A stretch of 64,000 nucleotides of DNA from Microbacteriaceae bacterium (GTDB lineage Bacteria > Actinomycetota > Actinomycetes > Actinomycetales > Microbacteriaceae), in assembly GCA_025464995.1 (NCBI GenBank), contig JAODMO010000006.1, positions 1-64,000 of the forward strand. The letters run 5' to 3'. A program made the position numbers and the translations under genes. This document shows, in pieces, positions 46,519 to 54,554 of the stretch (positions are counted from its first letter, which is position 1; every line of letters starts with the position of its first letter). The notes below the pieces were generated by a model. That model was not told the DNA's origin. It was given only the letters and a program-made list of their open reading frames with translations, and searched no databases.

Positions 46519-46670
46519 GGATCCAAGGGTAGCCGAGCGTCGTCGGAGCTCCGGCGCGCGCAGGAGCGGATCGCGACACGGGCGCTTGAAGCGCCTTCTC
46601 AGCCCTACACTGATCGTGGGTGCGGCTGGCGTGCCCACGGCGCGGTCGTGAACCCGACGAGGATGCCCGA

Positions 46671-47873
46671 ATGTTCGACGGAGTCGTGAGACTGCTTGGC
46701 CGGCCGGGGGTGCGGTTCTGGTTGTCGTCGACCTCCTTGGCCCGAGCCGCGATCCCCCAGCCCGAGGGTGTCGCGGCGGTACACACCGTCGGCACGAACC
46801 CGGCTCGCATCCTCGTCATCGGCGGCGGCGCGGCCATCGGCTTCGGGGTCTTCTCCCACGAGCTCGCGCTGGCCGGACACATCGGACGGCAGCTGTCGGT
46901 CCTCACCGGGCGGGCGATGGATGTCGACATCCTGGTCGAACGCGAGATGACGATCGCCTCGATCCGCGGGTGGCTCTCCCGACAGCCGATCGGGCGCTAC
47001 GAGGCGATCGTCATAACGGTCGGCCTCATCGAGGCGCTCACCTTCACCCGTGTCTCGGCGTGGCGGCGGGAACTGGACTCCACGATCGACTACCTCCAGT
47101 CGCTCGGCCACGCCGAGCAACAGGTCTTCGTCGTGGCCGTGCCGCCGCTCGGCGCCCTGCAGAAGTACCCCGCTCCGATCCGGCTCTTCGCGGGGCGACA
47201 CGCGCGGCTCGTCAACGAGGCGACCCGCGAGCAGTGCGCACGACGTGCGCGAGTCACGTTCCTCCCGTTCGAGGCGTCGCCGTCGCAAGAGGCCGACCGC
47301 TTCCGCGGCTCGGCGACCTATTCGCGGTGGGCGGAACTGCTCGTCCCCCCGATCGCGGCGAAGCTCACCTCATTCGTCAGGCAGACACGGCCAACCTCCG
47401 TCGACCCCGACGACGAGCTCGACCGGCAGGCCTCCTTAGACGCGCTGAACATCCTGGACACGGAGGCGGAGGAGCGCTTCGACCGCATCGCGATCACCGC
47501 CAGGGATCTCCTCGGCACCGCGTCGGCCGCAATCGTCTTCATCGACCAGGACCGGCACTGGTTCAAGTCGTGCATCGGCGTCGACATGGAGCAAATGCCC
47601 CGTCTCTCCTCGCTGTGTGACATCACGATCCAGCGACGCGAGCACTTCGCCGTCGACGACGCGACGCTCGACCCGCGTTTCGCGGCGAACCCGATGGTGG
47701 TCGGTGAGCCGCACATGCGCTTCTATGCCGGCTACCCCATCGAGGCGCCCAACGGGATCAGGGTGGGCACCCTGAGCGTCTTCGACCCGTATCCACGCAG
47801 TTTCACGGATGCCGACGCGGCACTCCTGCGTGGGCTCGCCCTCATGGTGCAGAACGAGTTGCGCACGGCCTAG
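46671..47873 (+). CDS. SGNH-like hydrolase domain fused to C-terminal GAF domain
   Basis: N-half ARILVIGGGAAIGFGVFSHELALAGHIGRQLS...VITVGLIEALTF; C-half LDTEAEERFDRIAITARDLLGTASAAIVFIDQDRHWFKSCIGVD...MRFYAGYPIEAPNGIRVGTLSVFDPYPR. Confidence 0.8.
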   Translation: MFDGVVRLLGRPGVRFWLSSTSLARAAIPQPEGVAAVHTVGTNPARILVIGGGAAIGFGVFSHELALAGHIGRQLSVLTGRAMDVDILVEREMTIASIRGWLSRQPIGRYEAIVITVGLIEALTFTRVSAWRRELDSTIDYLQSLGHAEQQVFVVAVPPLGALQKYPAPIRLFAGRHARLVNEATREQCARRARVTFLPFEASPSQEADRFRGSATYSRWAELLVPPIAAKLTSFVRQTRPTSVDPDDELDRQASLDALNILDTEAEERFDRIAITARDLLGTASAAIVFIDQDRHWFKSCIGVDMEQMPRLSSLCDITIQRREHFAVDDATLDPRFAANPMVVGEPHMRFYAGYPIEAPNGIRVGTLSVFDPYPRSFTDADAALLRGLALMVQNELRTA

Positions 47874-47916: not shown

Positions 47917-48711
47917 CTACCGGCCGCCCGATCCGGTTCGACGAGAACCCTGCAGGCGCTCGAGTACGTCGCGCTCGCGCTCCGCCCGCTCGCGTTCGTC
48001 GCGCTCGTCTCTCTTACGGTCGCGTTCGGCGAGCACGCTCGGGCCCACGCGACTCACCGCGATCGCGATGCACGCGATCGCGATGATGAAGAGGGAGATC
48101 GCGACGATGTATGCGATGACACTCACGGGCCCTTCCGGTGCGTCGGGGTCGAGGAAGGGGTACGGGTACCAGCCCGTCACGACCCCGCGCACGAGCGTGA
48201 AGGCGACCCAGACGATCGGGAAGGAGATCGCATACCAGACGCGGCCCCACCCGAGTGCTGGACGGCCGGGTGCGAAGAGCCAGTCGAGCACGATGAAGAT
48301 CGGGATCCACACGTGCAGGAGATCGCCCGGCCAGGTGATGCCGACGAAGCCGTCGCTCGGCAGGTTGCGGAGCAACAGGTGGTACACCACCGCGGTGACG
48401 GCGGCATACGCGACGGTCGACATGCGCACCGCCGTGAACATCCCGGCGTCGCGGCGCCAACGCAACGCGATGACACCGCCGGCCACGAGCACGGCGATGT
48501 TGATGAGGCTCGACAGCACGGTGAAGTAGCTGAAGTACCTCGTCGGCTGGAAGGCGCCGTTGAGTACCTGGTCGGTGATCTGGGAGGTCACCGCGACGAC
48601 CACGAGGAGTCCGGCGGTGATCCGGAGGACTCCCGTGATTCGCCGCGCGGGAGAGGCGGTGTCGCGAGGCGCTAGGGACGCATCGCGGTTCGGGTACGAC
48701 GTCGCTGTCAT
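47917..48711 (-). CDS. Pr6Pr family membrane protein (second paralogue)
   Basis: TRYFSYFTVLSSLINIAVLVAGGVIAL...GVVTGWYPYPFLDPDAPEG; charged C-terminal tail. Confidence 0.82.
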   Translation of the reverse strand: MTATSYPNRDASLAPRDTASPARRITGVLRITAGLLVVVAVTSQITDQVLNGAFQPTRYFSYFTVLSSLINIAVLVAGGVIALRWRRDAGMFTAVRMSTVAYAAVTAVVYHLLLRNLPSDGFVGITWPGDLLHVWIPIFIVLDWLFAPGRPALGWGRVWYAISFPIVWVAFTLVRGVVTGWYPYPFLDPDAPEGPVSVIAYIVAISLFIIAIACIAIAVSRVGPSVLAERDRKRDERDERERAERERDVLERLQGSRRTGSGGR

Positions 48712-48897
48712 TGCATCAGGCTAAGACGGAAGCGGTTCTGCGCCAATAGTGATGAGGAATGTTTTCTACGGCCGCCCATCGCGTGAGGAGATCGAGTATG
48801 CACCGCACCGCCCGTCACGGTGCCCCGGTGAGCGGCGCAGCGGAATTCCGCGTAACGTTGACAGGTGGACTGTTCCACGACGACGAAAGGTTTTGAT

Positions 48898-49731
48898 TTG
48901 GGCGAGGAATGCATCCACGGGCTCGATTACGGGCTCTGTGACGCCTGCTTCCCCAAGGCGGCACCCGAGATTCCGGTCGCCGTAGCGAAGCCCCGTGTGT
49001 CGAGGCCGCGTGCCTCGTCGCTCACCGCACCACGCAAGCCCGCGCCCGCCGGCTCGCTGCGCAACCCGCCCGTCGAGGTCGGCGACCAGCGCATCTACCA
49101 CGTGACGCACGTGAGCAACCTCCCCGACATCCTGAGCTCCGGCCGGCTGCTCGCCGACGCCAGCGACGCGTGGGCGAAGCGCCCCGTCGTCGACATCTCG
49201 GCGGCCGAGACGCGCGAGTCTCGCCGCACGATCGTCGTCTCGGACGACCAGGGAGCGAGCGTCGCGAGCTACGTGCCGTTCTTCCTCAGCCCCACCTCGA
49301 GCCTGTGGGTGAGCGTTCGAGAGAACGTGGCAGACCCACGGCTCTCCATCGACATCCGTGACTCCGTGGCATCCGACTACGTCATTCTCGTCAGCTCGGT
49401 GCAGAGCGTCATCGACGCGCACGCAGCGGAGGAGACCGAGCGCGACGCCGCGGTCGTCGTCACCGACGGGGATGCCGCACACAACCTGACCCGTTTCGCG
49501 ACCACTCGCGAGGCCGGCGACCGCGTGCTGCGCAAGCTGCGTGCGGAGGAGGACTCGGTGCAGATCCTCGCCGCCGAATACCTCGTGCGCGACGAGTTCC
49601 CCTTCGACCTCGTCTCGTTGATCGGCGTCGCGAACGACAAGGCGCGCGATGCCGTGAAGGCCATCGTCAAGGCGTCGGACTTCAGCACCCGGGTCGCGGT
49701 CTACCCGCCGTGGTTCATGCGCGCCGAGTAG
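48898..49731 (+). CDS. DarT-like (DUF4433) ADP-ribosyltransferase with N-terminal Cys/His zinc-knuckle-like motif
   Basis: TTG start with AAAGG RBS. CIHGLDYGLCDACFPK; IYHVTHVSNLPDILSSGRLLAD; SYVPFFLSPTSSLW; VVTDGDAAHNLTRF; ILAAEYLVRDEFPFDLVS. Confidence 0.8.
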   Translation: MGEECIHGLDYGLCDACFPKAAPEIPVAVAKPRVSRPRASSLTAPRKPAPAGSLRNPPVEVGDQRIYHVTHVSNLPDILSSGRLLADASDAWAKRPVVDISAAETRESRRTIVVSDDQGASVASYVPFFLSPTSSLWVSVRENVADPRLSIDIRDSVASDYVILVSSVQSVIDAHAAEETERDAAVVVTDGDAAHNLTRFATTREAGDRVLRKLRAEEDSVQILAAEYLVRDEFPFDLVSLIGVANDKARDAVKAIVKASDFSTRVAVYPPWFMRAE

Positions 49732-49738
49732 CCCGGCA

Positions 49739-49772
49739 GCTCAGAACCAGATGCTCAGAACCAGATGCTCAG
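49739..49772. repeat. 14-bp tandem duplication (about 2.4 copies) spanning the GNAT stop codon
   Basis: gctcagaaccagat gctcagaaccagat gctcag. Confidence 0.9.
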
Positions 49773-51074
49773 CCACGGCGTGATCGCAGAGCGGAATGAC
49801 GCGTCGACGGCACTCGCCGAACCCTCGCGCAACTCGGTGATGCGGCCCGCGCGCGTGAGCGTCACCGCCGACACCCCGCCGAGGTAGAGGGCGCCGAGCT
49901 CGTTCACGCTGAGCGCGATGTGGGCCGCGTTTTCGGGCACGTCGCCGATGAGGGGCTTGACGGTGGCGCTGCCGTCGTCGGCGATCTCGAGCAGGAAACC
50001 CCCGTCCGCGTAGCCCAGCGCGTCGGTGACCTCGAGCGCGATGGTGCCGTGCGCGCTGTAGAGGCGAGCTTCGAGGGCCTTCTCGACGTCGAGGATGCGG
50101 GTCCAGAGGTGGTCGCGCTGCGTGGTCTTGCGTGCCGCGCGGAAGTCCGAGATCTGCCACGCGAACGCCTCATCGACCGAGCGCAGTTTCGCGGTGACCT
50201 CGCCGACGAGGTCCATCTCGAAGATGAACCGCCACAGTCCCGAGTATGCGTCGTCGGTCGCCGAGGTCTGGAAGACGACGTCGAGCGTGTGTCCGAACAT
50301 CTCCGATTCGTTCTCGGTCACGCGGTAGAGCGCGAATCCCTGCGCCGTTCCCGCGACGTCGTCGTAGCGGACGACGCGCAGCGTCTTCGACTCCTTGCCG
50401 TCGCCAAGCAGGCCGAGCAGCCGGCGCAAGAGCAGCGGCCACGGCTCGATCTGGCCGGGCGACGCGAGCCGCACCCGCTCGATGAGAGCGGGGGCCTGGT
50501 CGAGCAGCTCGTCGATCGTGATGAAGTGGAGGCGCCCGTGCGCGGCCGGGCCCGACCAGGTTGCGCGGCGGGTCGCGATCGTCCAGTCGGCCGCCATGAC
50601 CGACGGGGCGAAGCCGAAGCGGCCGTAGATGGTCGCCTCCGAGACGGTGAGCGCTGCGACCGGCACGCCGAGCGAGTGGGCGGTACGGAGCTCCGCCTCG
50701 AGGAGGTTGCGCGCAATGCCGCGCCTGCGGTGAGTCGGTGACACCGTGACGGCACTGATCGCCCACGCGTCGACGGTGCGGTCGCCCGGCACGGTGAGCG
50801 GGGCAGACCACGAGCTCACGGTGGCGACGGGAGCCGCGGCATCCGCCGCCTGCTCGTCCCACACCCCGGTGGTGCGGCGGTAGGAGAGCCCCTCGACCCA
50901 CGCGGCGATGATGTCGGCGCCCTCGACGCCGTCATGGAACCCGCGTGCCTCGGCCTGGAGCCAGGCCTCGAACGCCGCGGCGTCGCTCGTGTCGACGAGT
51001 TCGAAGCGCAGTCCCTGCGTCGCCAGCGACTCGGCGGATTGGCGGTCGATGGGTGCGTCGAGATAGTGGGTCAC
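49755..51074 (-). CDS. GNAT family N-acetyltransferase (Eis-like)
   Basis: AVTVSPTHRRRGIARNLLEAELRTAHSLGVPVAALTVSEATIYGRFGFAPS; sterol-carrier-like C-terminal region. Confidence 0.9.
   Translation of the reverse strand: MTHYLDAPIDRQSAESLATQGLRFELVDTSDAAAFEAWLQAEARGFHDGVEGADIIAAWVEGLSYRRTTGVWDEQAADAAAPVATVSSWSAPLTVPGDRTVDAWAISAVTVSPTHRRRGIARNLLEAELRTAHSLGVPVAALTVSEATIYGRFGFAPSVMAADWTIATRRATWSGPAAHGRLHFITIDELLDQAPALIERVRLASPGQIEPWPLLLRRLLGLLGDGKESKTLRVVRYDDVAGTAQGFALYRVTENESEMFGHTLDVVFQTSATDDAYSGLWRFIFEMDLVGEVTAKLRSVDEAFAWQISDFRAARKTTQRDHLWTRILDVEKALEARLYSAHGTIALEVTDALGYADGGFLLEIADDGSATVKPLIGDVPENAAHIALSVNELGALYLGGVSAVTLTRAGRITELREGSASAVDASFRSAITPWLSIWF

Positions 51075-51098: not shown

Positions 51099-54554
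<3,456 letters not shown>

Follow-up and report, generated by a model that had tools for sequence, protein, structure and literature searches.

An antitoxin-free DarT-derived ADP-ribosyltransferase of Microbacteriaceae, probably retargeted away from single-stranded DNA

The open reading frame (ORF) at positions 48898-49731 of the 64,000-nt stretch of Microbacteriaceae DNA analyzed here (the window) encodes an ADP-ribosyltransferase (ART) of DarT fold that, judging from the sequences of its family, is probably an antitoxin-free DarT derivative, retargeted away from single-stranded DNA (ssDNA) and fixed in the chromosome as a cellular enzyme of Microbacteriaceae. According to this hypothesis, a zinc-bound N-terminal motif and a basic, disordered linker would dock the enzyme on its target (a protein, an RNA, or a nucleoprotein complex), docking would compensate for a lost DNA-gripping loop, one ADP-ribose would be moved from NAD+ via R109 and E227, and D192 would position the acceptor, for which protein, RNA, and another base are candidates; in the absence of random ssDNA modification there would be no acute toxicity, and an antitoxin would be unneeded. 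We propose more tentatively, as a reading that falls somewhat short of probable, that a DNA toxin fold has become a lineage-core, antitoxin-free housekeeping enzyme with its own zinc docking module, whose regulatory role would be to ADP-ribosylate something other than DNA, namely protein, rRNA/tRNA, or nucleoprotein.

Gene, fold, and N-terminal motif

The ORF, the sequence blocks quoted from it in the earlier note, and the identities given there for its neighbors, a Pr6Pr membrane protein and a GNAT acetyltransferase, were found as described. The features of the locus are as follows.

47917-48711, strand opposite to the DarT-like gene: Pr6Pr membrane protein, upstream neighbor, divergent
48852-48858, + strand: GTAACGT, possible −10 element; GTANCGT is enriched upstream of relatives
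48886-48890, + strand: Shine-Dalgarno sequence AAAGG, 7 nt 5' of the TTG, recurring ahead of the zinc-type motif in most relatives
48898-49731, + strand: ORF for DarT-fold ART with N-terminal zinc-type motif, 277 aa, TTG start at 48898, stop at 49731
48910-48948, + strand: zinc-type motif C5-x-H7-G8-x5-C14-x2-C17, invariant and of fixed spacing in 98 of 98 relatives
48955-49089, + strand: Arg/Pro/Ser-rich, basic, low-confidence linker, residues 20-64 (pLDDT below 50 at residues 26-56)
49090-49728, + strand: DarT-fold catalytic domain, residues 65-277 (Pfam, AlphaFold model, Foldseek)
49222-49224, + strand: R109, equivalent to catalytic Arg51 of Thermus DarT, kept in 108 of 111 members
49471-49473, + strand: D192, occupying the base-coordinating position (His119/Asn) of canonical DarT, Asp in 104 of 111 members
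49576-49578, + strand: E227, equivalent to catalytic Glu160 of Thermus DarT, kept in 110 of 111 members
49755-51074, strand opposite to the DarT-like gene: Eis-like GNAT, downstream neighbor, convergent

Because the upstream neighbor is divergent and the downstream neighbor is convergent, the DarT-like gene is very likely transcribed alone, and it is apparently monocistronic; its GC content (0.69) is that of the window (0.68). An in-frame GTG is also present upstream of the TTG, at 48865; assignment of the TTG as the start is supported by the recurrence, in most relatives, of an AAAGG-like Shine-Dalgarno sequence and a TTG or GTG just 5' of the zinc-type motif. The sequence GTANCGT occurs in 65 of 93 distinct upstream regions, as compared to 8.6 expected in shuffles, and is a possible conserved −10 element; in relatives, it often lies ~90 nt 5' of the first Cys codon. 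Neither SOS/LexA boxes nor RecA-NDp boxes were found above chance upstream, which argues mildly against a role in DNA damage.

Profile and structure searches establish that the homology of the ORF to DarT far exceeds chance. Residues 67-274 match the Pfam DarT model PF14487 (E 1.7e-24; 87.1 bits vs. a cut-off of 22.5), and the protein matches the PADLOC DarT model (E 8.7e-30) and a PDB profile of Thermus DarT (E 8.3e-18). An AlphaFold2 model built from an 18-sequence alignment has a mean pLDDT of 83.7, with values mostly above 90 in the ART domain, and Foldseek ranks the DarTs of M. tuberculosis and Thermus as its top matches in the PDB (E 5e-17 to 6e-15; TM-score by target 0.73-0.81). Together with the alignment of E227 with E160 of Thermus DarT, these matches support the assignment of a DarT-like fold with a catalytic Glu and an NAD pocket. 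The match to the NCBIfam equivalog toxin_DarT (NF048013) scores 93.5 bits, below its cut-off of 150. We conclude that the label 'ART of DarT fold' is correct and that the label 'DarT toxin' fails on several tested features.

Scanning GTDB genome contigs with the C-terminal PPWF sequence as seed yielded 178 relatives, of which the best 80 are from Microbacteriaceae (a few being labeled merely 'Actinomycetota bacterium' or 'marine actinobacterium'). In a 98-sequence set comprising these 80, relatives from whole genomes, and the window protein, C-x-H-G-x5-C-x2-C is invariant, even though most of the sequences had been retrieved by the PPWF seed only. The N-terminal zinc motif proposed in the earlier note is thus present and conserved, but with six rather than seven residues between H7 and C14. 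Four potential zinc ligands (CxH..CxxC) are kept at fixed spacing, as in a zinc knuckle, and most likely bind zinc; regulation of the enzyme by the motif is possible. No Pfam domain covers residues 1-60. The linker that follows has a mean net charge of ~+7 across the family. No other protein bearing the motif signature was found in relatives, there being essentially one match per genome. One genome (G433) has two different motif-signature copies (C4:584379 and C5:337002), and one Lacisediminihabitans assembly has two equally matching copies with the same neighbors (L061 and L062).

Catalytic core and acceptor site

To compare the family with canonical DarT, we number residues from Thermus DarT to the window protein, take residue roles from published work (PMC9967889; PMC11543638), and give counts over 111 members, which are unevenly sampled (many are Cryobacterium), such that percentages are not independent observations. 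The NAD-contacting residues H13, T15, and N19 are retained as H68, T70, and N74, and the catalytic residues R51 and E160 are retained as R109 and E227; all five core residues (H68, T/S70, N74, R109, and E227) are intact in 107 of 111 members. Values of dN/dS within a genus are 0.13-0.23, indicating purifying selection.

The residues that recognize DNA show the opposite pattern. The base-coordinating residue, which is His119 in Thermus DarT and Asn in DarT1 and M. tuberculosis DarT, is Asp in 104 of 111 members vs. His or Asn in 19 of 19 intact canonical controls, and, despite the uneven sampling, the change to Asp spans the family tree. M78, an essential residue that stabilizes the oxocarbenium ion, is replaced by L136; the position is Val, Leu, Arg, or Ile in the family, with Met in only 5 of 111 members, whereas nearly all canonical DarTs have Met. 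The ARTT segment, from position 119 to the catalytic Glu, spans 32-35 aa in almost every member, as compared to 38-48 aa in canonical DarTs, is net acidic, and has lost its DW..YW element (DW in 0 of 93 members vs. 15 of 19 controls) and the basic residue four positions before the Glu (1 of 93 members vs. 14 of 18 controls). In DarT1, N104A and M71A are inactive (PMC11543638), and in EPEC DarT2, M84L and R166A abolish activity (PMC13368585); by numbering offset, we infer that EPEC M84 is M78 and that EPEC R166 is the residue four before the Glu. Of the other positions compared, Y71 is mostly Phe in the family; H65 is Ala in the window protein, a position that is variable in canonical DarTs too; and W137 (adjoining the M78 position), R65, and R106 are invariant or near-invariant in the family and absent at these positions from Thermus DarT. 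The replacements in the alignment, of residues and of the ARTT segment, point to loss of the DNA groove. We conclude that, at the level of sequence, the family keeps NAD+ chemistry and has lost ssDNA recognition, and that the identification of the protein as a DNA ADP-ribosyltransferase is not upheld, the recognition residues and loop being replaced family-wide.

A counterpoint to retargeting is that the basic linker could favor nucleic acid. It is conceivable, but unlikely, that the protein is a nucleic-acid ART of changed specificity, in which the zinc motif and linker replace the ARTT grip and D192 selects another base, such as guanine, or an RNA, such as tRNA or rRNA. The strongly basic linker, the location of D192 exactly at the base-coordinating site of canonical DarTs (together with its retention in 104 of 111 members), and the precedent that base choice already differs between DarT1 and DarT2 through this same residue (PMC11543638) are consistent with this proposal; however, two features needed on DNA, M78 and a basic side chain four positions ahead of the Glu, are not retained, the ARTT segment is net acidic, and neither NADAR nor DarG was found for repair of DNA adducts.

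A few members have a degraded catalytic core. Two members from genus g237 (L173 and L174) keep the motif and catalytic Glu and have a replacement of the catalytic Arg, R109; a third member (L018) keeps the motif and catalytic Glu and has replacements of the NAD-contacting His/Thr/Asn. Two members from genus g19, of 146-149 aa (L139 from G023 and L158 from G321), lack most of the ART core and retain the ECxHG..CxxCxP motif, the linker, and the C-terminal part; that this short form is shared by two species suggests a maintained, catalytically empty version. That a few lineages lack catalytic residues or the ART core and yet have the motif raises the possibility that catalysis may not be the sole role. 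Another member (L090) is probably frame-shifted. One relative also encodes a second, distant Pfam DarT match (L119; G001 C1:3347209-3347745), a different DarT-like protein in whose aligned sequence neither the catalytic Arg nor the His/Asn position is present.

The degraded members and the greater constancy of the motif than of the catalytic core would fit a pseudo-enzyme or binding protein, in which the zinc motif and C-terminal half are functional and the ART domain senses NAD+ or ADP-ribose. In particular, the g19 proteins keep the motif and C-terminus without an ART core, and L173 and L174 have lost R109. We consider this proposal slightly less likely still than a nucleic-acid ART, because 107 of 111 members have the complete five-residue core, in which the Glu and Arg would be dispensable for a protein that binds NAD without catalysis. 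Retention of catalysis with retargeting away from ssDNA remains our preferred reading.

Antitoxins, neighbors, and distribution

Canonical DarT genes have a readily detectable partner. On 10 of 10 plasmids with DarT homologues, a gene of DarG size lies downstream, and the ten partners form one alignable family, mostly annotated as macro domain-containing proteins. A profile made from these plasmid DarG proteins finds DarG in 5 of 5 genomes of the phylum that have a canonical DarT. The same profile finds no DarG in the window's genome or in 36 relatives; no macrodomain is encoded in the 64,000-nt window, in agreement with the earlier note; and no NADAR was found in the Microbacteriaceae genomes searched, including the window's. 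The window's assembly has 95.6% completeness and 5.8% contamination, and the picture does not change in near-complete genomes from its genus. If ssDNA is not indiscriminately modified, DarG would not be needed. The single macrodomain of the window's genome belongs to the MacroD type and is encoded on a different contig. As a hidden antitoxin, this macrodomain was rejected: it is of a different macrodomain class, and six gene-bearing genomes have no Pfam macrodomain of any kind.

Clustering of neighbor proteins over flanks of up to 10 kb at 80 loci revealed no constant neighbor or operon partner. A GNAT is present in 21 of 80 loci, in both orientations, 30 of 80 have an SNF2 helicase no more than 10 kb away, and 32 of 80 have a MOSC-like protein (identified by eye); these recurrent neighbors mostly reflect lineage synteny. 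The suggestion that the adjacent GNAT controls the enzyme is not supported, since the GNAT is convergent here, is absent from most of the 80 loci (present in 21), and is not fixed in orientation. The only defense-model matches among the neighbors are generic SNF2-helicase ones. In the window, an SNF2-family helicase with a weak SWIM-type match at its N-terminus lies two genes downstream (51099-54554, − strand); it scores on the DpdE, ZorD, and DrmD defense models, all of its NCBIfam equivalog matches are far below cut-off, and it is probably generic. On the other side, a protein encoded at 46620-47873 (+ strand) has a GAF domain at its C-terminus; its N-terminal part is SGNH-hydrolase-like by eye and has no Pfam match.

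The gene is chromosomal and, as far as searched, limited to the soil- and water-dwelling Microbacteriaceae. Prevalence was gauged from the motif's DNA signature, for which a reversed-pattern control was nearly always empty: 190 of 400 genomes from the family carry it, as do 44 of 85 genera. Genera sampled at least five times are nearly always all-present (e.g., g32, g201, g210, g223, g239, g243, g244, and g247, each 9 of 9) or all-absent (g8, 0 of 10; g12, 0 of 10; g15, 0 of 9; g200, 0 of 9; g220, 0 of 9), with few mixed (g233 and g240). The gene was not found in the genomes searched from other families of the order, DarTs found elsewhere in the phylum lack the zinc-type motif, no family member was found in phage or viral records, and plasmid matches are canonical DarTs rather than family members. 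In a maximum-likelihood tree, a branch supported at 100/100 separates the family, which has a long stem, from 17 canonical DarTs. The patchy, mobile distribution typical of DarTG defense islands and plasmids is not seen.

The results bear on the proposal that the protein is a solitary DarT-type DNA toxin or abortive-infection effector, kept in check either by its N-terminus or by an antitoxin encoded at a distance. The Pfam and PADLOC DarT matches, and the MacroD-type macrodomain encoded elsewhere in the genome, would be compatible with such a toxin; however, the DNA-recognition residues are lost, six gene-bearing genomes have no Pfam macrodomain, the gene has a genus-core rather than a patchy distribution, and there are no defense neighbors beyond the generic SNF2 matches, such that we regard it as quite improbable. 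The defense role raised in the earlier note is unsupported on the same grounds of neighbors and distribution, and no member was found in phage or viral records.

Comparison with known systems

The DarTs in the cited literature are toxins or defense enzymes restrained by DarG or NADAR, and we found no description in the open-access literature of an orphan or zinc-bearing DarT like this family. If the retargeting hypothesis is correct, the whole clade would exemplify, in nature, the redirection of a DNA-modifying toxin to a different role. Members pass the Pfam DarT cut-off and risk annotation as ssDNA thymidine ADP-ribosyltransferases or defense toxins, which their residues contradict. With the residue set and the zinc-type motif, a new target of ADP-ribosylation could be sought in environmental bacteria that can be cultured.

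The family resembles DarT2, the DarTG2 toxin (Thermus, 7OMV; M. tuberculosis, 7YK3), in fold, catalytic Glu and Arg, NAD-contacting His/Thr/Asn, and a W-aromatic C-terminal end. It differs from DarT2 in having no DarG, in having Asp in place of the base-coordinating His/Asn, in the loss of Met78 and of the ARTT DW..YW element, and in the addition of the N-terminal zinc-type motif and basic linker, and the structurally aligned residues are only ~24% identical. DarT1 (E. coli C7; guanine-specific, with a NADAR antitoxin; 8BAQ) is of the same fold class and is a weak match (TM-score by target 0.50). Like DarT1, the family has an acceptor-coordinating residue in the ARTT loop that departs from that of DarT2; unlike DarT1, it has no NADAR in the genome and does not retain the equivalents of N104 and M71. 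In Streptomyces, DarT marks are reversed by a stand-alone protein, one of the SCO6735/TARG1-type macrodomain hydrolases of Actinobacteria (PMC9411070); the macrodomain in the window's genome differs from these in being of the MacroD class.
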